Source of the DNA: Albugo candida
Lineage: Eukaryota > Oomycota > Peronosporomycetes > Albuginales > Albuginaceae
DNA length: 64,000 nt
Reading direction: 5' to 3'
NCBI GenBank assembly: GCA_905220665.1
Contig: CAJNAR010000159.1
Location: 310,001-374,000 of the forward strand
The position numbers and the translations under genes are program-made. The notes under the pieces are model-generated. The model saw only the letters and a program-made list of their open reading frames with translations, did not search any database and was not told the DNA's origin. Of the stretch, positions 12,551 to 46,748 are shown in pieces (within the stretch, counting starts at the first letter, position 1; every line of letters starts with the position of its first letter).

Positions 12551-12667
12551 AAATAAAGAAGTCATCTACGTCTAACTCTAGTTCTGCTAGCAACAACAAT
12601 TTGGGATCCATTTTAATCTAGGGCGGTCACTTCTAGATGTACTGGCTACTACGTAACAAGTAACAAT

Positions 12668-14910
12668 GATTAGAGTCGCTCTTTCGACACAATCAAGTGT
12701 ATTGGCGACATTGGCGCTGACTTGGCAACCTTGCAAAATCCTCCGGTGTTGATTGCTTGCAGATTGTTCACGAGTCATCACCCCTGTATGATTAATCAAA
12801 AGATACCTCCACCCCGTGTGATCCGAAACAAGAAAGCAAATGTAATACTCCCATTACCTCGTCAAATGGTAGTAAAAAGGCAGCTGCAAGCGTGGATGAA
12901 CCCACACGTCCCACTTTGGTTAGTATCATCAAGTTCGAAGAATTCTTGCGTGATGATAAGGCTAAAGTGAAAACGCGGTAACGCAGGGAGCTTTATAAGC
13001 ATCGTATATTGATGCAATATTAAAAAATCTATGCTGGATAGTATCCAGAATGGTCAGTTGTTGCTGCAATAAGCGAAGCAGGACGGCCTTACAAAATTTC
13101 ACAACAAATATTTCCTATAATTTTGAAAACGGGTCAAGCATTGAAGCGCGTTCCAGATGGAAAATTGTTACCTATACTCCACCGGGATATTACGACCCGG
13201 TGTTCGAATATCTACTGGATAGTTACCAGATTGCTCAGGTGTTCCATGAGATGATGTGAAACGGTCAAGTAGTATTATACGCTTGAACTCTAGTACTACA
13301 AGAATGCATTCGGAGTGAATCTTGAGAACGAAAAGGAAGGTATTTGAAATCACTCCACGAAAATAAATGTGGAGTACTCATCAAAACCTCCTGAGGAGAA
13401 ATGCATCAAGAAGAGTGGTCATGGCGATGTAAAGAATTCACTTTTGTGTGTCCTCTACGCGTCCATAGGCATTGATGCATGTTGGGAAAGTAATCAAGAA
13501 AAAGCGTTAGGCAGACAGGTCTCCCCTGCACGGGTTAAGAATGCTCATATTTGGACAAAGCGAGCACGTTTCGGTCAACGTGGGCACTGCTTACCAGCGG
13601 CGGAGACAAAACGCCAAAAAAGAACAGAGCCCATCACCACAAAACATACATCCGTGGTCGCCACAAAAGAGATAGAATCACCTGTCCTATTCAAAAGAGG
13701 GAAAAGCAAGAGAAACGGAAAGCCTAGGACGAAATATCGTTGGAGTCTAATTTTTCTCGAGGAATCAAGACACCAGGTACCTCAACCCCGCCCCCCCCGC
13801 AAGCAACCCTCCTCTTCTTGTACTTGAGGACAACCAGATCAACCAGTGTTCTTGTAACCGGTGACGTGGGATGAGATATAGCAATGCTGGTGGTTCGTTC
13901 ATGAAAGAAAAGTCCCCGCGTGGATCCATTTCGTCACATGGTTTCAAAGGGAAGCCCTCATGATCTACCTGGTTTGGTAACCAAGAATCATTTATCCACT
14001 CCGGTGATAATTGAGGTGGAGATGAAGGAATTCGGAGCGGTTGGCAACGCGGAGAATGATACACGGTTTCAAATTATCGTGAATACACGGATGCAAGAAT
14101 AATTAATTAGTCATTTTAAAAGAGGCTGCCCATTTTTTTCGCAAACGCCCCACCAAGATCGAAAAAACGGAGCGACCAACTCGGTTTGGCGAACTGGGAG
14201 AGATGATGGAAATTGATTTCAGAAATGCAATCTACACATTCCGACCAGACGAGCTGGTCCAAGATGCTGCAGGAATCTCTCATATGCGAAGGCTCATACA
14301 GTTCTACACATATCCGGCAAAAATTATACGAGCAGCACTTGATCATCCTATCATAATGAATGGCGGGCTTCTCGCGTGTATGGAGTCGAATGGTAGGGCC
14401 TTGAAGGACGTGGCATATCTTCTAATGATTAATAGAGTCTTCGCTGCTCATGACTTGAATGAAGATGTCACGTTTTCGACACGATATTGTCTACATGTTG
14501 GTGGAAATGTTCCATCGATACTTGATCTGATGGTCAAGCGAGCCGCCACACGGTAGACGGCAATGCAGAAAATGTCTCTCGTTTTGTCAAGGGCAACAAA
14601 AGTTTTCGCTATGTTGGAACTACTACTCATGTGTACTACCCCACTTTTTGCTGGGTACAATATCTCACTGATTGGCCAGTGATTTGGATTCCTGGACATC
14701 ATTGTCGATTGTTTCCCACCAATGTGCTACTCTCATTGTCACGCTCAGGAGTAGGCATGAAGTGCTGGTACCAGTGGTATCGACGTAAATGGCGAGGTGT
14801 TTTCTGTATTGATATCGACGAGCTCTCCCTTAGAACTTAATTTTCCCCGGAAGAATCAACAACACTAAACCTATCACAACCAGATGGTGAAAACGAAGTT
14901 GACCGATGGC
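12668..14910 (+). pseudogene. LINE ORF1 remnant
   Basis: Broken ORF1. The N-terminal block encodes serine/threonine-rich sequence matching the intact copy's start. Around 13.14 kb it reads LKRVPDGKLLPILHRDITTRC..., parallel to TRTPNGKILTSLMRDHGNPVFES. HIWTKRARFGQRGHCL at 13550 matches RPRFGQRGPYCL. The best-preserved part is 14203-14556 (MMEIDFRNAIYTFRPDELV), which matches LMEMDSKNALHQLRPDKLV near the ORF1 C-terminus. No zinc knuckle is visible in this ORF1 family. Confidence 0.7.
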
Positions 14911-14929
14911 CCACTTAAGCGTGAATGCT

Positions 14930-17900
14930 GAAGGCTCCTCAATTATAACAACGTGTGACAACATTTCAGCACTCATGGTGAATAGTAATGGAATTTATAA
15001 AAATGGCCATCTTTTTTATTGACCACGTACTATCACAACACTCTATTTGTTGTGTTCAAGAAACGAAGTTCCACGACCACAACCAACTGGAATCAATTTT
15101 TAGTTTTTATTACATTCAAAAATGAAGCAGATAATGTTGGTCAATGGTCCAAAACAGTGCTTTTCTCCATCTTATTTTTATTCATTTATTTAGATATCTC
15201 AAAATCGCAGTGACGGCGTCAATACATACTTCGTATTGAAAAGCTGAAGAGCTCACCAACGAAGTATTCGCATTCGCTAGTCGGTTTTACGTCTCTCATT
15301 CACGAGGCACCAGTGTATATTCATAAGTATATGCACTGGTCGAGGCCGAGGAAAGGATGATATTCTATGAGGTATTATTCTCCAAATCTTTCGAAGCGAT
15401 GACAACATACGTCGCATTTGATGATTTCAACAGACCAATCGATCCAGCTATCGATTCTTCGAGCGGAACAATTCGACACGAACCAAGTCGATTAGCGTGT
15501 GTGGAATGGCTTTCACAGTTGGGTGTGGTAGACGCTTGGTGAATTCAACATCCAACTGAGAAAGTAGTTACAGGACCATTACCGCGCAAGAATCGACTTG
15601 ATTATATCTGCATGTCGGAAGAGCTATTCAATATGGTATACAAAACCTCTGAGTATTTTCGTCCACGACATGCCGGAGATCATCTGGCACAAAAAGTAAC
15701 TTTTGCAAATCCAACTTAATCTCCGGGTCGAAGATATTGGAAATGTTCATTACGACTATCTGAATATCCTAGAGTTGTCGAAGCAATCAAATTGGAAGCG
15801 ATTTTGGTGCTCGAACAGTTACGGACAACTTCGAATCCCGGTTAAATCTGGGAAAGTTGGAAGACGAAAGTCAAGAAACAGCTTCAAAGCATTGAAAACA
15901 AGGTTGCACAAGAGAGCCGACGTGATGTTGAGTCTAGCCAGCGTGTTTTGGAAGTCGGAACAGCTCGATATCGCATTCAAGACACCAATGAGTCACGGTA
16001 TTTTTACGAATCGAGTCTCCAACAATTTAAAATTTCAGTCGAAACCGATGAGAAATACAGCCAAGATAATAGCTTTGACCATCACGTGAAGCATATGGAG
16101 AACTCTTACAAGCATTGTTTTCGCCCTCCAGATAGTTCTTGTCGTCGCGTGCCGATTGAAAATGTCATCAAAAAATGTGGTACCGTGACATCGAATCCGA
16201 GGGAGATTATTGACGAATTCAGAGATCATTGGGGTGGTGTCATGGGCTCTGTTTATAGCTCAGAGATCGACTCAACTGATCCATGTGAAAGAAAGCAAAA
16301 AAAGTTACTCGATTTGATTCAAGTTTCCCTTGCCTCAGCAGAAAAGACCGTCTCTCAGCTCGCTTAAGTACGACCGAGATGGCGGAAGCGATCAAGCACA
16401 TGCGGAGTAGTTCTTCTCGAGGTATGGATGGACTACCAGCTGCATTTTATCAGCTTGATCCGGAAACGTTTGGCGAGTGTTTGAAGATCGTGTTCGAATT
16501 TCAGCTAGAAAGAGGAATTTTACTGCGATCACAACGTCACTCAGCAATCACACTTTTATACAAAAAAGGATCACGAGGTGATCCTGGCAACTATCGACCG
16601 ATCGCACTGCTTTGCGTCGATGTAAAAGTACTTTCAAAAGTGTTGGCGTATCGATTGCAACGTTTTTTGCCAGAATTGATCCATCAAGATCAAAAAGCAT
16701 TTGTGCGAGGAAGGTCGATGCATCACCATATTCGACATCTCACCGACCATCAAGACTTGGTCACTCATCGTGAGGAGGAAGCTTATGCGACTTTTCTCGA
16801 CTTTAAGAAAGCTTATGATCGAGTCAATTGGACGTACATGTTTCGCGTTTTGGAAAAAATGGGCGTTGGAAAAAGTTTCATCGACTGGGTTCGTCTTTTG
16901 TACAATAACACAAAGGCGCAGTTGATGATTAATGGAAATATCACACCGTCCATTACACCACAACGTGGCGTGAAACAAGGTGATCCTCTCTACTTTTTCT
17001 TTTTCTGATGACGATCGAACCTTGGGAAATTTACTTCGTCAACATGAAGAACATGGCATTTGGATTAATGACACGACTGTCGCAACTGGATTATTTTTGC
17101 AGACGATTCGACATTGCTTTCAGAGACACCAAATGGTGTTTTGACGCAACTCGAACTCGTCCAAGTCTATTGCGATGGATCGGGTGCGAAACTCATCTTG
17201 AGTAAATCATCCTTGCTCTCGTTGAATCGGACCAAGCCGTGTCCACGTATTCCCAATTTGACCATAATGGGTCCGGAGGATTCGGTCAAGTATTTGGGTA
17301 TTCCATTCGACCAGACACCGACTCATTCGATGGTCTTTTCAACTCTCGACAAGCGTTTTTACGATGGGTTTGGTGTATGGTTTCGACGAGCAAGAACTGT
17401 TCGTGGTCGACTACTGGTTGCGCAGACGATGATTTTATCACGTTTGTGGCATTACACGATGCACGTGGACATACCAGCAATGACTATTCGACAGTGGCAA
17501 TCGATGTTAAATGGATTTGTGCTTGGTCGGAAACACAAAAAAGATTCAAAACATGTTCACCTACTCAGCAAAGAGTTTTTATATCTTCGCCAACAAGATG
17601 GTGGACTACAAGTTCCTTTTTTGGTGGGACGATTAAAGCTACAACGTATTCAATTCCTTCAGCAGTTCGCATCCGATGCGTCAACAATTATTCCTGCGAA
17701 TTGGACAACTGCTTCGACGGAATTATTACAACTTATCCAACCTTCCTTTGGACCACACAAGCCGATGGATATCTTCACCATCGCACCAAATCGACATGGG
17801 AAAACGGTTCAATGGGAGAGCATATCGTCATGGTGGAAACAAGCATTTAGAATGTGGCATCGGATGGATTGGAGCATTTCAATATCAGATTTAAATGTTT

Positions 17901-19190
17901 CACAACGCCGTCAGTACTACATGGAGCAACCGATGTGGTTTCACTGCGACCAAAAGTTACATTACGAAGCTGCTACTCGTAATCCGAGTACGCAGAACGT
18001 TTGGTACAATCTTGGCATGGTGGATGAACCACATCGAACATTTCGAAAAACGTTTGCTACACTTTTCGACGTTCGAAGTTTGCAAGACTTTTTTCGTGAA
18101 AGCGACACATGGCCAACGAAGGAAGATTTCGTCGCCAACTATTACAACGACGAAGAGCAGAACACATCGGATATGTCTGAAGAAAAGTTGTTGCGTCGAC
18201 TTTACAATGAAGTCTCTCGGCTACTGCAGAGAATTCGCTCGACGATTGGTCTCATTACTTGGATCGAACCAAACACAAGTGGTAGATCGTTTGTTATGGG
18301 AGTGCATAGCAAGGAACGGAAACATTATTTCTCATCTATTCCACTCTCACAGCTCTCACGAAACCTCTAGAGCCTCCCGAACCAACCAAGAGTCATCCGC
18401 TGTCAACACATCGGTGATCACGTGAGGGATCGGATGCACTCGATACAGAAGGAGTTCGATCATTTGTAGATGGTATGACATGGCCTTTTTACTAGAGGAA
18501 AACGATTATATTTGACGAACGCGAAGTTAACAAATGGCTACATCACGGCATCTTCGAAAACGTGCCTTACCAATTTTTGAAGATTTACAGTTTTGTCTGG
18601 CTTTCGGATGCTGCCAGTTTGATCTCGGTTCTGTTTTTCAAAGGATATTCTGCCCAACATTATATTGTGCACGCAGCCTTCGTGTGGGGCAGTGGAATTC
18701 AATCAACATCACTTTCTAAAGTGCTATCACTCGGGGAAATTATGGATGGAGTTACTCCCTTGTTGAGATCAGTTTTTCTCCTCCCGACCACGTTGGACGC
18801 ATATTGGATGTGCAATCGTACCAGCACTACGGTCGGATTGGAAAGAATATTTACAAAGTATATCACATTTATGGCTTGCGTTGCAATCGGTGACGCTGCA
18901 CGTCTTCTGGACGGATCGGAACCGTCACTTACGCGATCAGCAATAATAAACTCCGACAGTTCCAGCACGTTTCAGGACCGACAACACGTTTAATACGCAC
19001 GTTCGCTACTTTCGAAGGAAGTGTTACGATCAAGACAAACGCATTCTGATTTCAAGGGTGCTGGATCAACTCGCTACAGAAGGAGCATTCGGTTGGTTTT
19101 TCAGAACTCAAAGATCATTGCCCCGGGTATCACACAGGCAAGTAGCAATGCAAGGGCAAAACGGATACTAGTCCTAGTTCTAGTTGGATG
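14930..19190 (+). pseudogene. LINE ORF2 remnant (APE endonuclease, RT, zf-RVT)
   Basis: Endonuclease motifs survive in several frames at about 15.36-15.70 kb (AFDDFNRPIDPAID, a damaged form of GDFNTPLDPAID; NRLDYICMSEELFNM). RT occupies 16379-17130 (GMDGLPAAFYQ, NYRPIALLCVDVKVLSK, FLDFKKAYDRVNW, RGVKQGDPL). The catalytic FADD segment at about 17090 is frameshifted by a shortened T run. The thumb/connection continues at 17114-18370 and the C-terminal zf-RVT-like region lies at 18.56-18.72 kb. The ORF is also broken at 16367, just ahead of the RT. Confidence 0.75.
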
Positions 19191-19250
19191 GCTCTGTACA
19201 TCCTAGTATGGCGCACAGCAATTCGCAAAACTCGTTATTGCGTTCTTTTC

Positions 19251-20512
19251 TCGAAATCGAAATCTGCGTCCAATAAAAAATGCCGCTGCGTTTTTTTGCC
19301 AACGCCCCACCCCAAACCTCACAGACCGCAACCCACCCAGCATGCCTTCCACGCCGCAACATCTTTTGTCTGGTGTCCCTCTGCCACCCTACGCCCGTAC
19401 ATAGCAATAGCGTAACCTTCAAACATCCGACCAACACCAAAACAACTCTCCTTCTTCTCACCCATCCAGATCTGTGTCGCATTCATTGTCAGCATCCTCG
19501 TCGCCCCACATGTCAACAATTACGGCCGAGGAAAGTACATTTACTGCATTGCAACAAGTAGTTGACGAATTCGAAGAAAGCAATGTACTCTTCCGCGTGA
19601 AGTTTTACGTCAGTCTCAAGTCTTACAGAGCTGCACACACGCGTTCGGCCGAAGAGCTTGGCATATAGACAATCAATACTTCCATATTGAAGAGATTTTT
19701 AAACAACTTTGAGGAAAGGAACAGGAACTTAGCGGTAATGAACAGCAAGTCGAGTTCGACAATGCGTGAAGAGGCGCTCGAGCAAGCAGACATGGGACGG
19801 TGTGCATATTAGACATAACAACAGGACCTATCAAGTTGAACGCCAGTGAAACAGACTTGTTTTGTGCTTAAATGCTTGCTTTCCATAAATATGACAATCG
19901 CATCGCTCCAGGCTTGGTCGTGCCCCAACGCCAACCCTCAACTTCACATGTTCAAGTATGGATTGAATTTTGCAAAAGCTGCACAGTTTTCTACATTCCG
20001 CGCCGCTGCGTTAGCCCCACAGCAGACAGTGCTAGAGCAGATGCACAATCAATTGTGACCGATGTTACGCAGTAGCTCTTGTCAAGGTGGGGTACAATAT
20101 ATGCGTCGTAGCACATTAATTGGCAAATTTGGGCGTCGCAGATTGTCTGTAAACCCATGCCGTTACAGGCAGCAGCGATTGAGCGGCCCCGGCCAATCCA
20201 AATCTTCCATCTGTTTCGGCATTTACCAAGGGTGGAGATGCTTTTGTACAATCTGCACAGCAGAACAACTCGGTTGCTATAGCCATTCTTGATGACTTTG
20301 GTGAGCAAGTTGATGTGATCAAGCCCGAGATTACGAATTCTTTGTTGCGAAATGAGGATTTAGAGCAGAGTATGGCCCGTCACCGTCGATGATTGTGGTA
20401 TTCAACAATGCATTAATACCCGTTGAAACTCCTGACAGTCAAGAAATTCTTCAAGATACCCCTGATCAGGTAGATATAGATAATGCAGAATAAAAACAAT
20501 TGAGAACTGCGG
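19251..20512 (+). other. Unassigned spacer with short open stretches
   Basis: No gene or transposon is recognised here. A C-rich, low-complexity stretch (about 19270-19500) precedes a short open frame (19509-19668, STITAEESTFTALQQVVDEF...). A second open stretch at about 20217-20387 encodes a charged sequence (NNSVAIAILDDFGEQVDVIK) that ends in a stop without a recognisable domain. Both could be remnants of a decayed transposon ORF. Nothing supports an active gene. Confidence 0.3.
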
Positions 20513-20516
20513 TTTC

Positions 20517-21880
20517 TTATGCAAAGCCCAGTTCAAAAAGATCAATTGAATTATTGTATCGTACACAAGGTTTAAATCGTCCTGAAAGTGAATATCTGCA
20601 TTTATGGAAGAGATTGTGCATGTTATAGTTTATATACGTTTCAAACTTAGAGGAGATTGCCGTCGGCATATCTCGTGCCTTGACTGAGCCTTCTGTGTAA
20701 TTGCGCTGCGTGCTTTCCCTGGTCAATCCAAACATCACCTCAATGAGATTGTAAAAAGGACAATACGAAAGCAAAAATATGGGTATAATCTCACGCGACC
20801 GCATGTAATTAGTGAAATTTGGGTGGCAATGAATCCTCGCGCCGTCAGCAACCCACACAGAGTGCATTCCTGGGTGCTTTTGTACCTTGCCTGACTTAAG
20901 GGAAAACTTACGGCAGCATTCCATGAACTTGCTCCGATCAAATGTTCCCTCAGTCATGTAGGCACCCAAAAGACCTTCACACCGGATGAAGCAGAGCAAG
21001 GATGTCTTTTTCATTCTGGAGAATTCGCCTCGATAGAGCAGCTTTTCCCCCTAAATGATAATCAAAGCATTTAATGTTGAAACAAAAAAATACCACGATA
21101 TGACATATCCGCTATGATTAACTTCAAGGCATACCCTCGCTTTCTCAACATGACACGATTTTCAAATGATACTTCGTCCAAAAACGTCAAGGTAAGATGC
21201 GTTCAATCAACAGAATTGATCTCACATTCGAAGCGTATGATATCTGATTGTTTGATATTGATTGCGTGGCGTTCAAGAACCTATCATGGAGTATTAGCGT
21301 TGCATAATACCACATCAACATTTCCCGCTATGTAACTAAGTGACTGACTTTATATGTGAAGTTGAACTCTCGAAGGGTTTGCCGAATCGTCGAGCAGCTG
21401 ATGTCCGTGTTCCACTTCACTTCGAATGCGTGATTGGTCTCGTCCAGGTATGAAAGTGGGTTGCTGATTGTATAACAGCGCAACCATTCGCGGTTCTCCG
21501 CGTTATACTTTTGGTTTGGAAATTCTGTGAATTGACGTGCAACAGAGCCAGTCTTCTCGTATGCCTTGATCCAGGCGCTGACGGTAGACGGTAGCAACCC
21601 TCCTATATACAAATCTCAGGAAGTAATAGGCATACAGAGCGTGTAACTTCATGTTTTCCGAAGCGTGCTGACGTTCTATGGTGGAAAGAAGCATATAGAA
21701 TAAGCGGGTTCTGTTAATCTCTGGTAGAGATACTGAGATTTGTCGTGGTGTGTAATAGAAAGCAAAGAAGGGGGTTAGGGTTGGCAGGTAGAATGGGTGA
21801 CAGCTGCCAAAAAAAACGCAAAATTTGGATTTTCCTTGAAATCGACAGTACTTATGAACGATTTTGAACAACTTTCTTTC
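20517..21880 (-). pseudogene. IS630/Tc1-like DDE transposase, decayed
   Basis: Minus-strand transposase in pieces. The N-terminal part (about 21880-21330) is rich in helix-turn-helix features (LLPSTVSAWIKAYEKTGSVA) and has a frameshift near 21600. The catalytic part includes FLDEVSFENRVMLRKRGYA (first Asp, about 21190), VWVADGARIHCHPNF (second Asp, about 20850) and YCPFYNLIEVMFGLTRES (Glu, about 20760). This is the D..D..E plan of IS630/Tc1-type enzymes with an (S/C)P(F/D)xNxIE motif. A roughly 70-nt interval at 21046-21117 looks like a former intron or insertion (ends in TTTAG) and leaves the frames mismatched by one base. I could not delimit terminal repeats. Confidence 0.7.
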
Positions 21881-21884
21881 ATTT

Positions 21885-22078
21885 ATAGGATGGACGCAGT
21901 CTCGTACTCTGGTGGTTGAGGCTAACGCAATACAGGACTACCAAGGAGAAGACATGATTATCATCTCTCACAGGTATTTTCACGAAACGTTTATTGTAGG
22001 TATATGTGTTATTGAAGATAGCTTAGGCAACTAGAGAAGTCAGTTAGTCTAGTCTGAATCTAGTAATATAGACACCTT
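21885..22078 (+). mobile_element. LINE 3' tail fragment
   Basis: About 190 bp matching the last 200 bp of the near-intact LINE: GGATGGACGCAGTCTCGTAC, then ATCATCTCTCACAGGTATTT, CACGAAACGTTT, AACTAGAGAAGTCAGTTAGT and the terminal block AATATAGACACCTT. It ends at 22078, directly against an antisense tRNA-Lys fragment. Confidence 0.75.
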
Positions 22079-22121
22079 CAACTAAGCTAGACAGGCACTT
22101 CTCAATTTGCCGTCTACTGCG
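22079..22121 (-). repeat. tRNA-Lys 5' fragment plus flank (LINE target site)
   Basis: The reverse complement of 22079-22096 matches the first 18 nt of the tRNA-Lys at 46658 with one change. It is followed by the same 5' flanking sequence (ACTTCTCAATTTGCCG on the plus strand). It separates a LINE 3' tail from a LINE 5' head and therefore marks a LINE insertion site. Confidence 0.7.
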
Positions 22122-22340
22122 TAATCCGCCATTTTAGCAGAAACAACTCGAAAAACAACTTTTTTGAACCCCCAAGTCGACATATCGACACAACCCAGGG
22201 TGCTGCGTCCACTTGTAGTGAAGTGGCAACCGTCGTGAATCACCTGGGTTTGGGTGACTGCATGATTGTTGATGAGTCATCATCCCTGTGTGATGACGTA
22301 GTGAGTGCCCCCACCCCATTGTGACGGTTCAGGGTGGGTC
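22122..22340 (+). mobile_element. LINE 5' head fragment
   Basis: Matches the 5' UTR and the start of ORF1 of the near-intact LINE: GAAACAACTCGAAAAACAAC, then AAGTCGACATATCGACACAA and a coding block equivalent to the first about 55 codons (HDCMIVDESSSLCDDV-like). Similarity fades by about 22340. The stretch 22341-22500 holds nothing I recognise. Confidence 0.7.
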
Positions 22341-34087: not shown

Positions 34088-34100
34088 TGATTTAGCCTGA

Positions 34101-34296
34101 CATTTACAAGCTGGACACAGTCTCGTATTAAGGGTGCTGAGGCTACTACGATACGAGATTATCAACGAGAAGACATATTATCATCTCTCACAGGTATTTC
34201 ACGAAACCTTTTTTATATGTATATATGTTATTTAAGATAGCCTAGGCAACTAGAGAAGTCAGTTAGTCTAATTCTACTAATATAGACACCTTCAAC
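34101..34296 (+). mobile_element. 196-bp LINE-tail element with 13-bp target duplication
   Basis: Flanked by the perfect direct repeats TGATTTAGCCTGA (34088-34100 and 34297-34309). All 196 bp match the last part of the near-intact LINE's 3' UTR, starting CATTTACAAGCTGGACACAG and ending AATATAGACACCTTCAAC. It holds no coding sequence. An inverted repeat TCTCGTAT/ATACGAGA (34121-34128 and 34151-34158) forms a possible hairpin. It could be a severely 5'-truncated LINE or a SINE-like unit using the LINE machinery. It lies 45 bp upstream of a host gene. Confidence 0.75.
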
Positions 34297-34353
34297 TGAT
34301 TTAGCCTGAGTAGTTTGTGTGGTTACATGCATTAAGTTGTGGAGGTAATTAAA

Positions 34354-36740: not shown

Positions 36741-39523
36741 CATTATCGACCTGCTCTTATAGATTCTTTGAATTGCTTGTCACTTTCTTATGCTCGAATC
36801 CAGTTCTTTGTCTGGAATGGATGGATTGCCGGCAGCATTCTACCAACTCGCTCCGAGCGATTTTGGTGAATGTTTGCAAATTGTCTTTGATGATCAACTT
36901 GGTCGAGGCTCTTTGCTGCGCTCTCAGTGTAGTTCGGCAATCACGTTGCTTTAAAAAAAGTATCTCGAGCAGATCCTGGCAACTATCGTCCTATCGCATT
37001 GATATGCGTGGATGTGAAAGTGCTGTCGAAAGTACTTGCCTATCGACTCCGGAAAGTGCTTCCGAAACTAATACACGAATATCAAAAAGCATTTCTGAGG
37101 GGCAGATCCATCCACCACCACATTCGGTACATAAGTGATCTACAGAATTTGATCACTCATCGTGGTGAACAAGCATATGCAATCTTTCTCGATTTTGAGA
37201 AAGCGTACGATCGAGTGGACTGGTCGTACATCTTTGCAGTGCTTTCAAAAATGAATTGTGGAAATTCGTTTATCAAGTGGAAAAAGCTTCTATACACCAG
37301 CACGACTGTTTCGTTGTTGTTGAATGGAACGCTTTCACCGAGGATCAGTCCATCCCGGGGAGTGAAACAAGGTGATCCACTCTCCGCATTGCTCTTGCTC
37401 ATGACAATCGATCTGCTGGGTAATTTATTGTGGAGGAACGACGGCCCTGGTATTTGTATCACTCCAATGGATACATCAACCAGTTTATTCTTTGCGGACG
37501 ACTCGACTTTGTTATCGTCTTCGCTCGGCGGAGTGGAGGCTCAGGAGCAAAATTAAATCTGTCCAAGTCGACTTTACTTCCTCTTAATCGTCCTCAAGTA
37601 TGTCAGCCGTTCGCTTTAGTGAAAGTTTTATTTATCACGTTACGAGACGTTACGAGTCGGTCAAGTATCTAGGAGTTCCTTTCAGTCATTAGTGGGTGAT
37701 TTGATGATTGAATTCCTAGAAGATCGTTTCTTATGGTGGTTTTCGTCAGTGATTTCGTCGTGCAAGAACGCTGCGTGGACGTTTACTGGTGGCGCAGACT
37801 ATGGTTTTGTCAAAATTATGGCATTTTACGGCACATTTCATATCCTGCAGCATTTACTGCGACGCTGGCAATCGATGTTAAATCGATTTGTGTTGAATCG
37901 AAAGTACGAGCGGGATTCAACGCACATGCAACTATTTCGATCGGAACTTTCATATCTGCCTTAATCACAAGGTGGTTTACAGGTTTCGATGATCGAAAAT
38001 CAATCAAAGAAGCAGCGAATCCTATTCCTCCAACAATTTGCGCTCCATTCGAGTACGACTGTTACAGAAACTGGACACTGACTGGAATGGAGATGGTGAA
38101 GACTATCTTACCCAACTTTGGACCGTCTAAGCCGCTTGATATCTTAACGATATCACCTGGTTGGCATGAAACCATGGTTCGTTGGAATGTAGCGTCATCA
38201 TGGTGGAAGCAGACGTGCGTTTGGTGGAGTCAAGTAAATGGGAGCTCACACCGACGACTTTATCTTCGCAGAAGCAACACATAGTTATGTTAAATGCTCC
38301 TGTGTGGCCATATATGGATAATCATCTTCACTTTGAGCAGCGACAACGTTCTAATAGTTCTGTTGCTCATTGTCGATGTATGGGAATGGTCCCAGAACCT
38401 GCGCGGACTTTTCGGATGCAGTTAACTCAAGCGTTCCGTATCCGTTCTCTGCGTGACTTGTTCGGTGGAAGATCAACTTGGTTCGATTCGTCTTTCGAGT
38501 TTGTCTTGCGTTAAAGTACGCACTCAGATGGCACTCCAGCTAAAGTTTCCACGACCAAGCTTTTGCGACGATTGTACGTCAAAGCTACTCAAATTCTTCG
38601 TCGACTTCAACCAGAGGGTGTGTTGTTGTGTCCTGGGCGTTCACTTTCCGGAGCTCATCCGTTTCATTTTGGCATACAAGTTTTGGATAAGAAAGTTTTC
38701 TTTCCAAATATTCCTCGGACTCAACTCTTTCGAGATGTTAGTATAGCAGAACCACCGGATAAGACGCACCCAATGTTGCTGCACTTACCGGAGAGGGACC
38801 GGACAGCTGCTTCGACTTGGGTAAAGAATTTCTCAAAGAGTTTTCAACGTCTTCGTGGACGTTTATTACCAATCTACTCGGACATTCAACCCCGACTTAC
38901 ATATTCAATTCTACCAGTGCGATCCCGGTTCTGGTATATGAAGCAAGCTTATCCGGAAATATCTTGTGCGCATAGGAGCATTGTGGTGAGGTGGAAAGTT
39001 ATCAGCATCTGTTTTTCGACTGTAGTAGGACATACACGATTTGGGAAGAGCTATTCCGATCGTGGATAGCTTTCTTTCCAGCTCGACCTAAGTGGTCGCA
39101 CATTGCGTGTCTACGACTTCCTCTCCTCCGTGAGACGTGGAAACCATTCAGGGTGGTGTTGGAGGATCTTTGGTTTGCATTGGTTGCCATTGCAATCCAT
39201 TTCATCTGGACGGATCGCAATCGACGACTATTCGATCAAACATCTTCAAAACCAACAGGACCAGCTATATCGGTGATTTGTAGCACATTCAGTGCCCATA
39301 TTCGGTTTTGCCAACGGCAGTGCTATGATCCCGCACAGCTTGATCAGCTTCAGACGGTTTTGCTCGGCCTATTGCAATCGGGTTCAGCTAAACGATATTT
39401 CTCCAGTAGATCAACTCTTTTCAAGATACGAAGGCGCGAGCGCTTATAAGTCTGGTCTGAGTGGTCTAGTCTACTCACCGGTCCTTGCTTGCGCCAAGTT
39501 CACTTTTGTGTTGGCAAGTTGCG
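36741..39523 (+). mobile_element. 5'-truncated LINE, second subfamily
   Basis: Starts within the RT domain and runs to the ORF2 C-terminus (stop at 39449) plus about 75 bp. RT motifs: GMDGLPAAFYQLAPSDFGEC (about 36815), NYRPIALICVDVKVLSKV (about 36980), AIFLDFEKAYDRVDW, RGVKQGDPLSALLL and LFFADDSTLLSS (about 37485). The protein is clearly diverged from the near-intact LINE and closer to the fragment at 11.3-12.5 kb. Frames break at about 36955, 37550 and 38515. It meets the near-intact LINE tail to tail at about 39.52 kb. Confidence 0.75.
36760..39449 (+). pseudogene. LINE ORF2 remnant (RT to zf-RVT)
   Basis: The main open pieces are 36999-37556 (palm and fingers of RT, with the FADD active site retained), 37692-37964, 38182-38514 and 38563-39449. 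The C-terminal stretch holds the zf-RVT-like block (about 38985-39045: VESYQHLFFDCSRTYTIWEE, partly frameshifted) and LVAIAIHFIWTDRNRRLFDQ, parallel to LQAVTLHFVWTDRNRRLFDH in the near-intact LINE. Confidence 0.75.
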
Positions 39524-39564
39524 TAGTAGCCGGCAAATTGAGAAGTGCCTGTCTAGCTCAGTTG
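39524..39564 (+). repeat. LINE target-site duplication, left copy (tRNA-Lys 5' part)
   Basis: 41 bp matching 46634-46675 except for one missing T. It consists of the tRNA-Lys 5' flank (TAGTAGCCGGCAAATTGAGA...) and the first 18 nt of the tRNA (GCCTGTCTAGCTCAGTTG at 39547-39564). The LINE 3' end follows at 39565. Confidence 0.85.
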
Positions 39565-39860
39565 AAGGTGTCTATATTACTAGAATTAGACGAACTGACT
39601 TCTCTAGTTGCCTAGGCTATCTTAAATAACATATATACATATAAAAAACGTTTCGTGAAATACCTGTGAGAGATGATAAAATGTCGTCTCGTTGATAATC
39701 TCGTATCGTAGTAGCCTCAGCACCCTTAATACGGACTGTGTCCAGCTTGTAAATGCTGTAAAGTTGAAAAAGTTGTTAAGTTGTAAAAATGGTCCAAAAG
39801 TACCGTGGGTTGCAAATTGGTGTGCGCCACACTACGGTGAGAAGAACCAGCCAACTAGGA
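39565..39860 (-). other. LINE 3' UTR with conserved hairpin
   Basis: The last about 195 nt are shared with the copies at 34101-34296 and 21885-22078. Pairing arms TCTCGTAT (39699-39706) and a partner near 39729-39735 surround a conserved loop (GTGCTGAGGCTACTACG on the minus strand). LINE 3' UTR structures are often the recognition site for their reverse transcriptase; that role is inferred here. Confidence 0.5.
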
Positions 39861-42800
39861 CTAGGATCCGAGTTGCACTTGCATTTTGACTTGTCTGTGC
39901 CGTACCCGCAGTAATGATCTTCGGCTTCTGAAAAATCCACCAAATGATCCTTGCGTTGCGAGTTGATCCAGCACCTTTGCAAGCCGAATGCGCTCCTCTT
40001 GTTCGTAACACTGTCTTCGAAAGTACCGAACGTGCGCACTAAACGTGGTGTAGATCACGGAAAGTGCTGGAACTGTCGGAGTTGCTGATCGATGATCGAA
40101 CAAACGACGATTCCGATCTGTCCAGACGAAGTGCAGTGTCACCGCTTGCAATGCAAGCCACAAATCCGATATAATTGCTAAATATTCTTTCCAATCCGAC
40201 CGTAGTGTTGGTACGATTGCACATGCAATATGCGTCCAACGTGGTCGAGAGGAGAAAAACTGATCCCAACTAGGGAGTAACTCTCGCCATAACTGTGCCG
40301 TGTGATCGCACTCTAGAAAGAGATGTTGATCGGATTCCACTGCCCCACACGAAGGCTGCGTGCACAATATAATGTCGGGCTGAATATCCTTTAAGAACCA
40401 GAAACGAGATCGAACTGGCAACATCCGAAAGGCGATACGAAACTGTAAATCCTCAAAAATTGGTAATACACGTTTTCGAAGATGCCGTGATGTAGCCATA
40501 AAAGTTCGAACTCGTTCTGAATCCAGTGCGTCCGATCTCTCCCGTGATGACCAATGTGTCGACATCGGATGACTCTTGGTTGGTTCGGGAGGTTTCCAGA
40601 CGATTCGTGATAGTTGTGAGCGTGGAATAGATGGAAAATAATGTTTTTTTTCCTTGCTTTTTACTCCCACATAAAATGATCTGCCACTTGTAGTTGGTAT
40701 AATCCAAGTGATGAGACCAATCGTCGAGTGGATACGCTGGAGAATCTGAGTGATTTCATTGTAAAGTCGACTCAGCAACTTTTCTTCAGACATATCCGAG
40801 GTGTTCTGCTCTTCGTCGTTGTAATAGTTGGCGACGAAATCTTCCTTCGTTGGCCATGTGTCGCTTTCACGAAAAAAGTCTTGCAAACTTCGAACGTCGA
40901 AAAGTGTAGCAAACGTTTTTCGAAATGTTCGATGTGGTTCATCCACCATGCCAAGATTGTACCAAACGTTCTGCGTACTCGGATGACGAGTAGCAGCTTC
41001 GTAACGTAATTTTTGGTCGCAGTGAAACCACATCGGCTGTTCCATGTAGTACTGACGGCGTTGTGAAACATTTAAATCTGATATTGAAATGCTCCAATTC
41101 ATCTGATGCCACATTTCAAATGCGTGTTTCCACCATGACGATATGCTCTCCCATTGAACCATTTTTCCATGTCGATTTGGTGCGATGGTGAATATATCCA
41201 TCGGCTTGTGTGGTCCAAAGGGAGGCTGGATAAGTTGTAATAATTCCGTCGAAGCTGTTGTCCAATTCGCAGGAATAATTGTTGACGCATCGGATGCGAA
41301 CTGCTGAAGGAATTGAATACGTTGTAGCTTTAGTCGTCCCACCAAAAAAGGAACTTGTAGTCCACCATCTTGTCGGCGAAGATATAAAAACTCTTTGCTG
41401 AGTAGGTGAACATGTTTTGAATCTTTTTTGTGTTTCCGACCAAGCACAAATCGATTTAACATCGATTGCCACTGTCGAATTGTCGCTGCTGGTATGTCTA
41501 CGTGCATCGTGTAATGCCACAAACGTGATAAAATCATCGTCTGCGCAACCAGTAGTCGACCACGGACAGTTCGTGCTCGTCGAAACCATACACCAAACCC
41601 ATCGTAAAAACGCTTGTCGAGAGTTGAAATAACCATCGAATGAGTTGGTTTCTGGCCGAACGGAATACCCAAATACTTGACCGAATCCTCCGGACCCATT
41701 ATGGTCAAATTGGGAATACGTGGACATGGCTTCGTCCGATTCAACGAGAGCAAGGATGATTTACTCAAGTTGAGTTTCGCACCCGATCCATCGCAATAGA
41801 CTTGGACGAGTTCAAGTTGCGTCAAAACACCATTTGGTGTCTCTGAAAGCAATGTCGAATCGTCCGCAAAAAATAATCCAGTTGCGACAGTCGTGCCATT
41901 ATCCAAATGCCATGTTCTTCATGTTGTCGAAGTAAATTTCCCAAAGGTTCGATCGTCATCAGAAAAAGTAATGCTGAGAGAGGATCACCTTGTTTCACTC
42001 CACGTTGTGGTGTAATAGATGGTGTGATATTTCCATTAATCATCAACTGCGCCTTTGTGTTATTGTACAAAAGACGAACCCAGTCGATGAAACTTTTTCC
42101 AACGCCCATTTTTTCCAAAACGCGAAACATGTACGTCCAATTGACTCGATCATAAGCTTTCTCAAAGTCGAGAAAAGTCGCATAAGCTTCCTCCCCACGA
42201 TGAGTGACCAAGTCTTGGATGTCGGTGAGATGTCGAATATGATGATGCATTGACCTTCCTCGCACGAATGCTTTTTGATCTTGATGGATCAATTTTGGCA
42301 AAAAACGTTGCAATCGATACGCCAACACTTTTGAAAGTACTTTTACATCGACACAAAGCAGTGCGATCGGTCGATAGTTGCCAGGATCACCTCGTGATCC
42401 TTTTTTGTACAATAATGTTATTGCCGAGTGACGTTGTGATCGAAGTAGAATTCCTCTTTCCAGCTGATATTCGAACACGATCTTCAGACACTCGCCAAAC
42501 GTTTCCGGATCAAGCTGATAAAATGCAGCTGGTAGTCCATCCATACCTGGAGAAGAACTACTCCGCATGTGCTTGATCGCTTCCGCCATCTCGGTCGTAC
42601 TTAACCGAGTGAGAGACGTTCTTGCTCTGCTGAGGCAAGTGAAACTTGAATCGAATCGAGTAACTTTTTTTGCTTTCTTTCACTTGGATCATATGAGTCG
42701 GTCTCTGAGCTATAAAGAGAGCCCATGACACCACCCCAATGATCTCTGAATTCGTCAATAATCTCCCTCGGGTTCGATGTCACTGTACCACATTTTTTGG

Positions 42801-44085
42801 TAACATTTTCGATCGGCACGCGACGACAAGAACTATCCGGAGGGCGAAAAAAATGCTTTGAAGAGTTTTCCATATGCTTCACGTGATGGTCGAAGCTGTC
42901 ATCTTGGTTGTATTTCGCGTTGTTTTCGACTGAAAGTCGAAATTGTTCGAGACTCGATTCGTAAAAGTACCGTGACTCATTGGTGTCGTGGATGCGATAT
43001 CGAGCTGCTGCGACTTCCAAAACACGCTGGCTAGACTCAACATCACGTCGGCTATCTTGTGCAACCTTTTTTTCGATTCCTTGAAGCTGTTTCTTGATTT
43101 TCGTCTTCCAACTTTCCCACATTTTACCGGGATTCGAAGTTGTCCGTAACTGGTTGAGCACCAAATTCGCTTCCAATTTGATTGCTTCGACAACTTTAGG
43201 ATATTCAAATAGTCGTAATGAGCATTTCCAATATCCTCGACCGGGTGATTGAGTTGGATTTGCAAAAGTTACTTTTTGTGCCAGATGATCTCCCGCATGT
43301 CGTGGACGAAAATACTCAGAGGTTTTGTATACCATATTGAATAGCTCTTCCGACATGCAGATATAATCAAGTCGATTCTTGCGCGGTAATGGTCCTGTAA
43401 ATACTTTTTCAGTCGGATGCTGGATTCGCCAAGCGTCTACCACACCCAACTGTGAAAGCCATTCCAAACACGCTAGTCGACTTGGTTCGTGTCGAATTGT
43501 TCCACTCGAAGCATCGATAGCTGGATCGAGTGGTGTGTTGAAATCACCAAATACGATATGTGTTGCGGTCGATTCGAAAGTGTTGGAAAGCAATAACTCA
43601 TAAAAACCCACTCGTTCCTCGACCTTGACCGGTGCATATACATTGTGAATATACACCGGTGCATATACATTGTGAATATACACCGGTGCATCGTGAATGA
43701 GAAGACGCAAAACCAAATAACGATTTCGAATGCTTCGTTCGGTAAGTTCTTCAGCTGTTGAGTAACCGGGAAAGTCCGAACGAAGAATTGTCATGACGCC
43801 GCCACTGCGGTTTTGAGTCGGATGTAGAAATGCACTGTTGTGATCATTGACAAACATTTTGTGCTGCATTTTTGAGGATAATAAAAACTGAAATGAGTCC
43901 AGTTGGTTGTGATCGTGAAACTTGGTTTCTTGAACACAACAAATGGAGTGTTGTGATAGGATGTGGTCGATAAAAAGATGACCATTTTTATGAATTCCAT
44001 TAACATTCACCGTGAGTGCTGAGATATTGTTCCACGTTGGAATAATCGAGGAGCCCTTAGCATTCACGCTGAAGTGGACCGGCAA
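39861..44085 (-). pseudogene. LINE ORF2 (APE endonuclease, reverse transcriptase, zf-RVT), two frameshifts
   Basis: Three successive frames: 44085-42601 (494 aa), 42589-41822 (255 aa) and 41906-39861 (681 aa). The endonuclease carries LTVNVNGIHKNGHLF, CCVQETKF, SGGVMTI, VFGDFNTPLDPAID, NRLDYICM and AGDHLAQKVTF. RT carries SPGMDGLPAAFYQ, NYRPIALLCVDVKVLSK, FLDFEKAYDRVNW, RGVKQGDPLSALLF and the active site FFADDSTLLS. The C-terminal zf-RVT is SCGAVESDQHLFLECDHT. Comparison with the copy at 12.6-19.2 kb shows one base lost near 42612 and one lost at about 41903 (GGATAATGG, against GGATTAATG). All catalytic motifs survive, so inactivation is recent. Confidence 0.85.
43629..43690 (-). repeat. 27-bp in-frame tandem duplication in the LINE endonuclease
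   Basis: Two complete 27-bp units and a partial third, starting at 43629, 43656 and 43683. They encode a repeated nine-residue block (VYIHNVYAP) in the N-terminal endonuclease domain. The frame is kept. Confidence 0.9.
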
Positions 44086-46564
44086 TCAACCTCATTTCAC
44101 CATCTTCTTTTGAGAGGTGAAGTGTTGCTTTCTCTTCAGGGAAAAAACTGAGATTGACTGAGAGCTCGCCGATATCGCCACAGAGAAGTCCTTGCCATTT
44201 ACCACCAAACCATTGCGACCAACACTTTATGCCCACGTCGGAGCGTAACAACAAGATAAGCACATTGATGGGGAGTAAACGACAATGGTGACCCGGAATC
44301 CAGATCACTGGTCTATCGGTGAGATAGTGGATCCAGTGATCGTTTGTGTAAAATGTCGGGGCAGTAGACATAAATAACAATTCCAATAATGCGAGAGCTT
44401 TGGTCGCCCGAGTCAAACCGTGAACAGTGTCCGGCACTGACCTCCACCAAGGCATCACTTTCTCGAACAATACAGCTCTCTTGGAGGGAACTTTTCCACC
44501 AACGTGGCGATTCCATCGCGTCGTAAATGTGACATCTTCGCCGAGATTGTGCGCTGCAAAAACGCGATTGATGAGAAGTAGATGTGCTACTTCGTCCAAC
44601 GCAGGATCATTCGACTCCATGCATGAAATAAGCACCCCATGCATGGTGATGGGATGATCTAATGCTGCCCGGATGATTTGGTCCGGGTTAGTACAAAATT
44701 GTACCAGCCTACGCACATGTGGGATGCACGCATCGGCTTGGACCAGCTTGTCCGGTCGAAGCTGGTGGAGTGCATTTTTGGAATCCATTTCCATGAGCTC
44801 TCCGATTTCACCAATTCGAGTTGGTCGCTCTGCTTTTTCCACCGTTGTATGACGCTTCTTATAAAAGTGTGCCGCCTCTTTCGAAGTGGCTACCTCTTTT
44901 GGCATCCGTGCTTTCACGGGAATAATTTGAATGCGATTGCCATGCGCCGGATTGGCAACCGCTTGAACTTCTTCGACATCCACCTCCATGGTTGCGAGCA
45001 CAGAAAAGTAATTGCTTGTCGCCAACGTTGGGAGCGCACGAGGTGGTGCATTGGAAACCATTTGGTCGAACGGCTCAGTTCGATTACGCTTTCCTCGCGT
45101 CCATGCCAACTGCATGTATGTGTCACCATCCTTCTCCACCCGTGGATGGGAAGATGATTGACTTTTTAAATGTAGGATGGGGGGAGTGGTCTGTGATAAG
45201 TCTGGTGACCCTGGTGGTGAGATAGAGGGAGGACTGTTGAGCTCCAACGAAATTTGGTCGGAATTTTTGCGCTCCGGTCGCCTCGTCTCCAATTCCTGAA
45301 TTTGAATTGGCTTCTCCACCTTTTTTGGGACCACCACGACTGCCGTTGGCGCGGTTGTTTGTTTTTGTTTTTCTTGTTGCGATTTTGCTTGCTTTTGATT
45401 CTGAGGCTGAGTGTGAGTTGTGTTTGGTTGTTTTGTGTTTTTCTTTTTGTTTTCCTTTGGTTGTTGCCGTGTTCCCGTGTATATTGCAGCACCCAAATCC
45501 AAGCAGTAAGGACCACGTTGACCAAAACGTGGTCGTTCCGTTGGAATAGGAGCATTCTTACCCCGTACTGGGTAGAGCTGTTTGTCGTAAGCGATTTGTT
45601 CAATCACTTTACCAACTCTAACCAGTTGTTGGGGACACGTTGAGCAGCCAAAGTAGACTCTCCAAGTCGACATTACCACCTCTTTGGTTGGAACCGTCTC
45701 GCGAAAGGTGTCATACACCACTTGACACCCGAGTTGGTGAAGAGCACGGAGAATGTTGTTCCGTTCTTCCTCCACGCCTACGCCGAAAACATCGAGGTAG
45801 TACTTTGTTTCAAGAGTATCAAACTCCCGAAAAAAGTACTTCTCCCCAAGGATAGTCACCGGCTGACACTCCAACTGTTGGCAGGCATCCGCTGTGGTGA
45901 CCATCACTCTGATGTTTCCCCCAGGCATTTTGGACACCTGAGCGATTGACCGGCTCTCCAGTAGGCTTTCAAAAACCGGATTACCGTGGTCTCGCATCAG
46001 GGATGTTAGTATTTTTCCATTTGGAGTACGGGTCAAGGACTGGCCCGTCTCCAAGACCATCGGGAAGGTTGCTTTCCGGATTTGGAAAGGTCTTGCTGCT
46101 TCCAATTTAGCAGACAGAACAGACCAATCCGGGTGCTCCCCATCAGCATATAGCTGCAGTATAGCCTCGATATCCGAGGCTTTCGGCTTCGCGAGCTCGA
46201 CTCGAAATTTCGCCCGAGCTCTAGCCTGGTCCTTACGCAAGGACTCCTGCGACTTGATTATTTCTGCCAAAGTGGGACCTTTGGTGTCGTCCACACTTTC
46301 AGTTGCAGTTGCCTTTTGGTCACCCTGTGACGGGGCAACGACAGTACCGCTTGTACCACCGGTACCACATCCTACACCGGTAGTACCGGTATTACCCTGT
46401 ACCGTCAAACAGGGGGTGGGGGTACTTTCCACGTCATCACATAGGGGTGATGACTCATCAACAATCATGCAATCACTCAAGGCTGGGTGACTCATGAGGG
46501 TTGCCACGTCACTACAAGTGGACGCTAGCACCCTTGGTTGTGTCGATATGTCGACTTGAACCAT
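44057..46564 (-). CDS. LINE ORF1 protein
   Basis: Intact 835-residue ORF. The N-terminus is Ser/Thr- and Gly-rich (residues 1-85). A basic, Gln/Asn/Lys-rich linker lies at about 360-430 (KENKKKNTKQPNTTHTQ), followed by a proline-rich stretch (NSPPSISPPGSPDLSQTTPP). I see no CCHC zinc knuckle and no obvious RRM, so its RNA-binding mode is unclear. The function of LINE ORF1 proteins is RNA binding and chaperoning; that role is inferred from position. It begins 69 bp from the 5' end of the element and overlaps ORF2 by 29 nt, which suggests that ORF2 is translated by reinitiation or leaky scanning. Decayed relatives lie at 12.7-14.9 and 1.4-2.4 kb. Confidence 0.85.
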   Translation of the reverse strand: MVQVDISTQPRVLASTCSDVATLMSHPALSDCMIVDESSPLCDDVESTPTPCLTVQGNTGTTGVGCGTGGTSGTVVAPSQGDQKATATESVDDTKGPTLAEIIKSQESLRKDQARARAKFRVELAKPKASDIEAILQLYADGEHPDWSVLSAKLEAARPFQIRKATFPMVLETGQSLTRTPNGKILTSLMRDHGNPVFESLLESRSIAQVSKMPGGNIRVMVTTADACQQLECQPVTILGEKYFFREFDTLETKYYLDVFGVGVEEERNNILRALHQLGCQVVYDTFRETVPTKEVVMSTWRVYFGCSTCPQQLVRVGKVIEQIAYDKQLYPVRGKNAPIPTERPRFGQRGPYCLDLGAAIYTGTRQQPKENKKKNTKQPNTTHTQPQNQKQAKSQQEKQKQTTAPTAVVVVPKKVEKPIQIQELETRRPERKNSDQISLELNSPPSISPPGSPDLSQTTPPILHLKSQSSSHPRVEKDGDTYMQLAWTRGKRNRTEPFDQMVSNAPPRALPTLATSNYFSVLATMEVDVEEVQAVANPAHGNRIQIIPVKARMPKEVATSKEAAHFYKKRHTTVEKAERPTRIGEIGELMEMDSKNALHQLRPDKLVQADACIPHVRRLVQFCTNPDQIIRAALDHPITMHGVLISCMESNDPALDEVAHLLLINRVFAAHNLGEDVTFTTRWNRHVGGKVPSKRAVLFEKVMPWWRSVPDTVHGLTRATKALALLELLFMSTAPTFYTNDHWIHYLTDRPVIWIPGHHCRLLPINVLILLLRSDVGIKCWSQWFGGKWQGLLCGDIGELSVNLSFFPEEKATLHLSKEDGEMRLIAGPLQREC

Positions 46565-46633
46565 TGTTTTCGAGAGGAAGGAGATGAAAAAGGTTGTTTT
46601 TTCGAGTTGTTTTTACTAAATTGCCCGGTTACT

Positions 46634-46675
46634 TAGTAGCCGGCAAATTGAGAAGTTGCCTGTCTAGCTCAGTTG
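46634..46675 (+). repeat. LINE target-site duplication, right copy
   Basis: 42 bp matching 39524-39564 with one extra T. It covers the tRNA-Lys 5' flank and tRNA nucleotides 1-18. The similarity stops exactly where the LINE 3' end begins in the left copy. Confidence 0.85.
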
Positions 46676-46730
46676 GTAGAGCGCAAGACTCTTAATCTTG
46701 TGGTCGAGGGTTCGAGCCCCACGGTGGGCA
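46658..46730 (+). tRNA. tRNA-Lys (CUU)
   Basis: 73 nt folding as a complete cloverleaf without an intron. The acceptor stem GCCTGTC pairs with GGTGGGC (three G-U pairs) and the discriminator is A. The D-arm is AGCTC...GAGC with box A TAGCTCAGTTGG. The anticodon stem CAAGA/TCTTG holds loop CTCTTAA (anticodon CTT at 46691-46693). The T-arm contains box B GGTTCGAGCCC. A TTTT run at 46749-46752 can terminate RNA polymerase III. The LINE ends 24 bp upstream, so the gene's native 5' flank has been kept through the target duplication. Confidence 0.95.
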
Positions 46731-46748
46731 ATTTCTAATATGTGTTGC

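Follow-up and report, generated by a model that had tools for sequence, protein, structure and literature searches.

A long interspersed nuclear element (LINE) of the oomycete Albugo candida, a retrotransposon with an apurinic/apyrimidinic (APE) endonuclease, is likely to be attracted to tRNA genes, with the RNA polymerase III (Pol III) complex as the probable cue. The copy analysed here is 7.1 kb long and lies, directly upstream and on the opposite strand of an intact tRNA-Lys(CUU) gene, in a 64,000-nt stretch of DNA (the window: contig CAJNAR010000159.1, positions 310,001 to 374,000 of the forward strand; coordinates below are those of the window, and contigs, C, and loci, L, bear our own numbers). 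A preliminary description of the window had named tRNA-Lys as the target, a specificity that we reject because the same LINE end also abuts genes of other isotypes, nine in all (Lys, Thr, Asn, Met, Arg, Ile, Phe, Ala and Tyr). The LINE is not strictly tRNA-specific; nonetheless, its preference for tRNA genes is real and broader than first claimed, since 54 of 99 LINE 5′ ends read across the genome lie at tRNA sites and 12 of 15 places matching a tRNA box A pattern have a LINE end beside them.

Insertion junctions in the window and across the genome

The LINE occupies positions 39561–46656 of the minus strand, with its sense 5′ end at 46656, its 3′ end at 39561 (GTTGAAGGTG at 39561–39570) and Pfam matches to Exo_endo_phos and RVT_1 between them. 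The tRNA-Lys(CUU) gene lies on the plus strand at 46658–46730, where ARAGORN (46657–46731) and Rfam (RF00005, 60 bits) agree. The preliminary description correctly placed a minus-strand LINE beside this gene, between direct repeats that contain the tRNA 5′ end, with the tRNA whole only on the 46.66-kb side. It took the repeat for a 41-bp target duplication, which we reject because 23 of these nucleotides are the LINE's own: the 23-mer TAGTAGCCGGCAAATTGAGAAGT, at 39524–39546 and 46634–46656, is the LINE 5′ end in reverse, has 298 genome matches with at most three mismatches and occurs also at non-tRNA sites. The opposite proposal, that the whole 41 bp is element sequence, was likewise rejected, as the last 14 nt differ according to the tRNA. 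These 14 nt (GCCTGTCTAGCTCA) are tRNA nt 1–14 and constitute the true duplication, with a left copy at 39547–39560 and a right copy at 46658–46671 (both plus strand), the latter preceded by one extra T at 46657. Since nt 1–14 are thus present on both sides, the duplication does rebuild the gene as proposed. The break also falls inside box A as proposed, but after A14, since the GTTG that follows A14 (39561–39564) is the LINE 3′ end and not tRNA nt 15–18; we assign it so because at L047 and L074 the left junction reads CTCA-GTTGAAGG and the right one CTCA-ATGAGG, GTTGAAGG being kept on the left only. The LINE 5′ terminus at 46634–46656 (minus strand) abuts the tRNA 5′ end, and the 23-mer at 39524–39546 (minus strand), upstream of the left tRNA fragment, is the 5′ terminus of an older LINE, the remnant of a stack.

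For the genome-wide survey, 100 exact matches of the 23-mer were listed in contig order, of which 99 were readable and one lay at a contig end; for 3′ ends we read the first 30 of 478 matches, on contigs C1–C15. Of the 54 LINE 5′ ends at a tRNA gene or a stacked tRNA fragment, 10 abut an intact tRNA gene, 40 are stack positions with a recognised tRNA 5′ fragment and four were assigned by eye to variant or shortened fragments (CTCGAGTGTAGCTCA, three times, and ATAGCTCA, once). Five more lie at the box A of SINE2, a tRNA-like short interspersed nuclear element (SINE), and 40 lie elsewhere, one of which is a stack at a site without tRNA. At 39 of the 99, what follows the 23-mer is not the start of a tRNA, nor is it the 3′ end of a further LINE or SINE. 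These 39 are not all independent, since three lie, as judged by eye, in other parts of a tRNA-like SINE and a few have a repeated target in common. On contigs C1–C15 taken by themselves, 5 of 21 LINE 5′ ends are at tRNA sites.

Comparison of copies revealed that, on the tRNA-sense strand, the LINE 3′ end (GTTGAAGG...) comes directly after A14 and, at most of the remaining sites, directly after TCA, which is the arrangement expected of target-primed reverse transcription. The other junction lies 14, 15, 16 or 17 nt upstream of it in 52 of the 54 tRNA sites, level with tRNA nt 1 or immediately before it; as a result, roughly nt 1–14 are duplicated, the gene is rebuilt whole and the LINE 5′ end adjoins it, pointing away. 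At the 39 non-tRNA sites, a TCA ends 12–17 nt from the LINE end in 30, compared to a mean of 3.6 and a maximum of 11 in 2000 shuffling trials. With matching distances at the two kinds of site, the cut looks alike and only the address differs. The duplications of about 14 bp, together with the occurrence of 5′-truncated copies (as at 34101–34296 in the window and at tRNA-Met, L103), are those of an APE-type LINE.

Occupancy was also examined from the side of the tRNA genes, in a genome search with RF00005 that was made without regard to LINEs and from which the best 65 matches, hence only the best candidates, were taken. We left out 32 on contigs C134 and C196, which have a high density of tRNA genes, partly in mirrored pairs, and look mitochondrial for that reason, and two more by sequence (L102 and L115), keeping 31 nuclear genes. 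By classes assigned by eye, 15 of 20 genes with GCTCA are occupied, 13 by the LINE (one a 5′-truncated copy, at L103) and two by SINE1, a second SINE, as are all three with GCTTA or GCCTA but none of the remaining eight, two of which share identical flanks. Of the 31 genes, 18 thereby have LINE or SINE DNA as their 5′ flank. Among the 15 places matching the box A pattern TAGCTCAGTNGGNAGAGC, those with a LINE end have it within 14 nt, two have SINE1 (L099 and L124) and one is empty (L100). The tRNA-Tyr genes among the LINE-flanked isotypes bear an intron and were recognised by eye, ARAGORN having missed L125 and L126 and called L129 a tRNA-Thr.

Cues for insertion at tRNA genes

The pattern AGCTCAGTTGB occurs at 75 places, comprising 14 nuclear tRNA genes, four on the mitochondrial-looking contigs and 57 others, and a LINE end lies within 14 nt of it at ten, all of them tRNA genes. 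Hence AGCTCAGTTG is occupied in 10 of 14 nuclear tRNA genes and in 0 of 57 places outside known tRNA genes (Fisher 2e-9), so that more than AGCTCAGTTG is needed for insertion. Forty of these 57 decoys were read, yielding no tRNA by ARAGORN and five SINE2-like sequences, one of them preceded by a SINE1 end; the other 17 are simply absent from the tRNA lists. Similarly, CCAGCTCAGTYGGTTRAGC, a longer box A match carried by SINE2, has a LINE end at 3 of 81 places, compared to 12 of 15 for the box A pattern (Fisher 3e-10). All of these searches were for exact LINE ends, so that decayed ends are missed in every class.

These contrasts make it rather improbable that an endonuclease reading an extended box A motif suffices, with no role for Pol III. 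The shared A14 of the tRNA targets and the empty flanks of the eight tRNAs without TCA, CTTA or CCTA at nt 11–14 do speak for such sequence reading; yet the same ten bases go unused outside known tRNA genes, SINE2 is rarely struck despite its longer match, and the tRNA-Thr(TGT) and tRNA-Arg(CCG) genes are occupied even though they lack TCA. The reading that we favour would combine a loosely TCA-specific endonuclease with delivery by the Pol III complex. Brought to the gene in this way, the enzyme would cut in box A, target-primed reverse transcription would start at the cut and the stagger would rebuild the tRNA gene, which could then be struck again, building stacks by re-insertion. The active Pol III complex, or the open chromatin around it, would supply the tRNA preference.

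Several observations weigh against Pol III recruitment. The 40 LINE 5′ ends elsewhere are at ordinary sites, and only 3 of the 30 LINE 3′ ends read lie on a tRNA fragment; together these reduce targeting to a preference. Both results that the preliminary description had named as refuting it are partly present: most of the 3′ ends read are followed by sequence other than a tRNA fragment, and 23 of the 41 bp belong to the element. The 54 tRNA sites are not independent, raw counts being inflated by stacks on small contigs and by contigs that look like duplicates (C149 and C164, with equal spacings), and the Fisher tests treat sites as independent. Five of the 20 GCTCA genes are empty. The SINE2 count (3/81) is not significantly above that of plain decoys (0/52; p 0.28), which leaves a graded effect of Pol III promoters without support, and the 0/57 may be due in part to insertions having been purged from genes. 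Lastly, Pol III recruitment is something that we infer from DNA sequence.

An alternative without any recruitment is that the LINE inserts after any TCA and that copies at tRNA genes, being harmless, are the ones that survive. The duplication does keep the tRNA whole, and the many LINE 5′ ends elsewhere are what such indiscriminate insertion would leave. However, very many random insertions would be needed to fill 12 of 15 such short targets, several of them repeatedly, in a genome of 38.9 Mb; copies elsewhere survive too and the decoys are untouched, and we give this explanation little credence. Somewhat less improbable, though still unlikely, is guidance by base pairing, in which LINE RNA that reads through into an antisense tRNA fragment would end in UGAGCUA..., pair with the cut end ...TAGCTCA-3′ and carry the copy to the next tRNA gene. 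Antisense tRNA nt 14–1 indeed directly follow the LINE 3′ end in the stacked copies that we read, and SINE1, with a LINE-like end (ACACCCTTAAC vs ACACCTTCAAC), occupies the same slots. The read-through transcripts are a proposal from these arrangements, the tRNA-Thr(TGT) and tRNA-Arg(CCG) sites would pair less well, and pairing by itself leaves unexplained why the 57 decoys, identical in these ten bases, are spared.

Stacks, partner SINEs and complementary LINE ends

Rebuilt tRNA genes carry stacks of LINEs spaced by tRNA 5′ fragments, with SINE1 in the same slots, and a spacing of about 7.1 kb is frequent between successive LINE 5′ ends of a contig. Among stack neighbours on the same strand and within 16 kb of each other (counted by eye), 19 of 24 have the same tRNA fragment. 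The five with different fragments (involving L174, L140 and L141 on C64; L023 and L125 on C74, where Phe fragments lead up to a tRNA-Tyr gene; L143 and L031 on C71; and L132 and L171 on C29) possibly reflect recombination between tRNA loci, or misassembly. Together with the equal spacings on C149 and C164, they are what one would expect were the stacks assembly errors or products of unequal crossing-over and not of re-insertion. We hold this to be very unlikely, given the predominance of neighbours with the same fragment, the alternation of SINE1 and LINE in one stack (L183, L184) and the presence, at intact tRNA genes of several isotypes, of junctions that do not rely on stacks. The Lys stack of C149 has GCCTTTC in the gene itself and in the fragment closest to it, and GCCTGTC in the three fragments further out, an order that would result if stacks were extended next to the tRNA and retained its former 5′ sequences; against this, other Lys genes read GCCTGTC today, and exchange between loci may have occurred.

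SINE1 is a 319-bp element with a 5′ part that looks tRNA-like by eye, in which ARAGORN finds no tRNA. Its last bases, ACACCCTTAAC, resemble the ACACCTTCAAC of the LINE, and we infer that it uses the enzymes of the LINE. It is found between a LINE end and the tRNA in Asn (L187), Ile (L186) and Cys (L188) genes, between LINEs (L183 and L184) and at SINE2 (L185). SINE2, with 81 matches of CCAGCTCAGTYGGTTRAGC, is itself struck in box A by the LINE (the L185, L076, L135 and L167 set), with SINE1 in L185.

The two ends of the LINE are complementary to one another. Pairing of the first 30 nt with the last 100 nt yields −28.0 kcal/mol, a value that none of 1000 shuffles of one side or the other and none of 136 other element windows attains; in the window copy, the segment of the 3′ untranslated region (UTR) concerned lies at 39598–39619 (minus strand), placed by duplex energy with its position read from the sequence. 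Eleven other chosen 3′ ends, three 3′ UTR variants among them, gave −20.9 to −30.0, with at most 1 in 300 shuffles as strong, the 5′ side in all these duplexes being that of the window copy and the copies having been selected by exact 5′ sequence. Our guess is that the pairing ends help complete copies to form. A wider reading, tentative and on balance doubtful, would be that the LINE ends are adapted: the first ~29 nt would pair with the 3′ UTR, the RNA or cDNA would close on itself, the 5′ end would reach the tRNA site and complete copies would be favoured, with the terminal sequence becoming the new tRNA 5′ flank. If so, most eligible tRNA genes would be transcribed from upstream DNA supplied by LINEs and SINEs.

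The LINE and known tRNA-targeting elements

The window copy had been described as near-intact, which fits its length and ORF1 but not its ORF2 region, split over three frames. ORF1 (open reading frame 1; 44057–46564, minus strand like the others) encodes 835 aa without a Pfam match and has 21 relatives, among them sequences of Albugo laibachii, A. candida, Pythium brassicae and Globisporangium splendens. ORF2 comprises an APE-type endonuclease (Exo_endo_phos, 42601–44085, Pfam E 5e-9), the reverse transcriptase (RVT_1, 41822–42679, E 3.2e-26) in a different frame and, in a third frame, the end of the reverse transcriptase with the C-terminal region (39861–41918; from the ORF listing and the Pfam scan). 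Reverse transcriptase and APE-type endonuclease are thus both present, as in APE-type LINEs (non-long-terminal-repeat retrotransposons), and the APE-type domain upstream of the reverse transcriptase sets the element apart from the NeSL/R2 group, which has a restriction-like endonuclease. Compared with sequences of solved structures (PDB), the reverse transcriptase scores better with LINE-1 ORF2 (1.2e-33) than with R2 (1.6e-16), these pairwise scores, and not a tree, being what bears on a placement in the L1/Tx1 group. Its top match is 87% over 80%; the nearest named ones are mostly from Albugo, the best being those of A. laibachii (60–77% across the aligned portions) and of Phytophthora cactorum (63%). 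No RNase H family was among the Pfam matches of the five pieces scanned.

The window holds further LINE remains. A diverged fragment in the opposite orientation (36802–39511) reaches up to the older 23-mer at 39524; it has 68% identity to the main LINE over 716 bp and ~85% to L025, L027 and L036 near the fragment end, and its junction with the 23-mer may have formed at similar terminal sequences. On the plus strand, a second, older LINE pile (12662–22335) includes a LINE 3′ end running to 22082, followed by tRNA-Lys nt 1–14 with one change (GCCTGTCTAGCTTA, minus strand, 22083–22096) and then by the 5′ end of the next LINE; ARAGORN detects no tRNA in this pile. The 196-bp 5′-truncated copy at 34101–34296 lies at a non-tRNA site (34088–34309) between 13-bp duplications of TGATTTAGCCTGA (by eye), which fits a loose TCA preference. 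A neighbouring eIF3g gene has its nearest named match in Pythium oligandrum (68%), which likewise indicates an oomycete.

LINEs that target tRNA genes are already known, and we compare them here as far as the accessible portions of the cited sources describe them. The tRNA-targeted LINEs of dictyostelids include TRE5, TRE3 and NLTR-A, and in D. discoideum 61% of tRNA genes carry a TRE (PMC5006619). The TRE elements are APE-type, and insertion windows reported for tRNA-targeted elements begin 2 bp upstream and extend outward, or begin 7 bp downstream (PMC5911963). Like TRE5 and TRE3, which are L1-type, the Albugo element is an APE LINE that uses many tRNA genes as sites (PMC5006619; PMC5911963), inserting as TRE5 does at a fixed distance at genes of many isotypes. 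Binding of TFIIIB by ORF1 is a further mark of TRE5-like elements; the Albugo ORF1 matches no Pfam family. Unlike TRE5 (~50 bp upstream) and TRE3 (~100 bp downstream), it cuts within the gene, after A14, with a junction at tRNA nt 1 and a duplication that rebuilds the gene. The nearest known position is that of D. purpureum NLTR-A, 2–6 bp upstream, which resembles the adjoining of nt 1 here; NLTR-A differs in having an RNase H domain and, in the parts of PMC5006619 that treat it, no box A cut is described, whereas our junctions are at nt 1 and nt 14. NeSL-1_TV (tRNA-Pro) and two planarian LIN families, LIN15_SM (tRNA-Arg) and LIN25_SM (tRNA-Glu), are also LINEs specific for tRNA genes, but these are regarded as kin of NeSL, a clade with a restriction-like endonuclease, and each is listed with a single tRNA gene (PMC4640811), in contrast to the APE endonuclease and nine isotypes found here. 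Small-RNA genes are likewise targets of Utopia (U2 snRNA gene, with oomycetes among its hosts) and of Dada DNA transposons (tRNA and snRNA genes) (PMC4640811; PMC3706591; PMC8869645), which differ in endonuclease class or in being DNA transposons, and in their targets. The A. candida genome paper reports 5% LINEs, and the word tRNA is absent from its accessible text (PMC3206522). Our search, made chiefly on titles and the openings of abstracts and outside Repbase and most subscription journals, found no APE-type LINE that cuts in box A across many isotypes, and within the literature searched this combination is new.

The published tRNA-targeting APE LINEs found in this literature land beside the gene, whereas the Albugo LINE cuts inside the internal promoter, an insertion that is tolerated because the stagger is as long as the stretch between the start of the gene and box A. 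Nine isotypes, decoys with the same bases and the partner SINE1 amount to a natural experiment that can tell whether DNA sequence or the Pol III complex is the cue for insertion, and the stacks may preserve old 5′ ends of tRNA genes.

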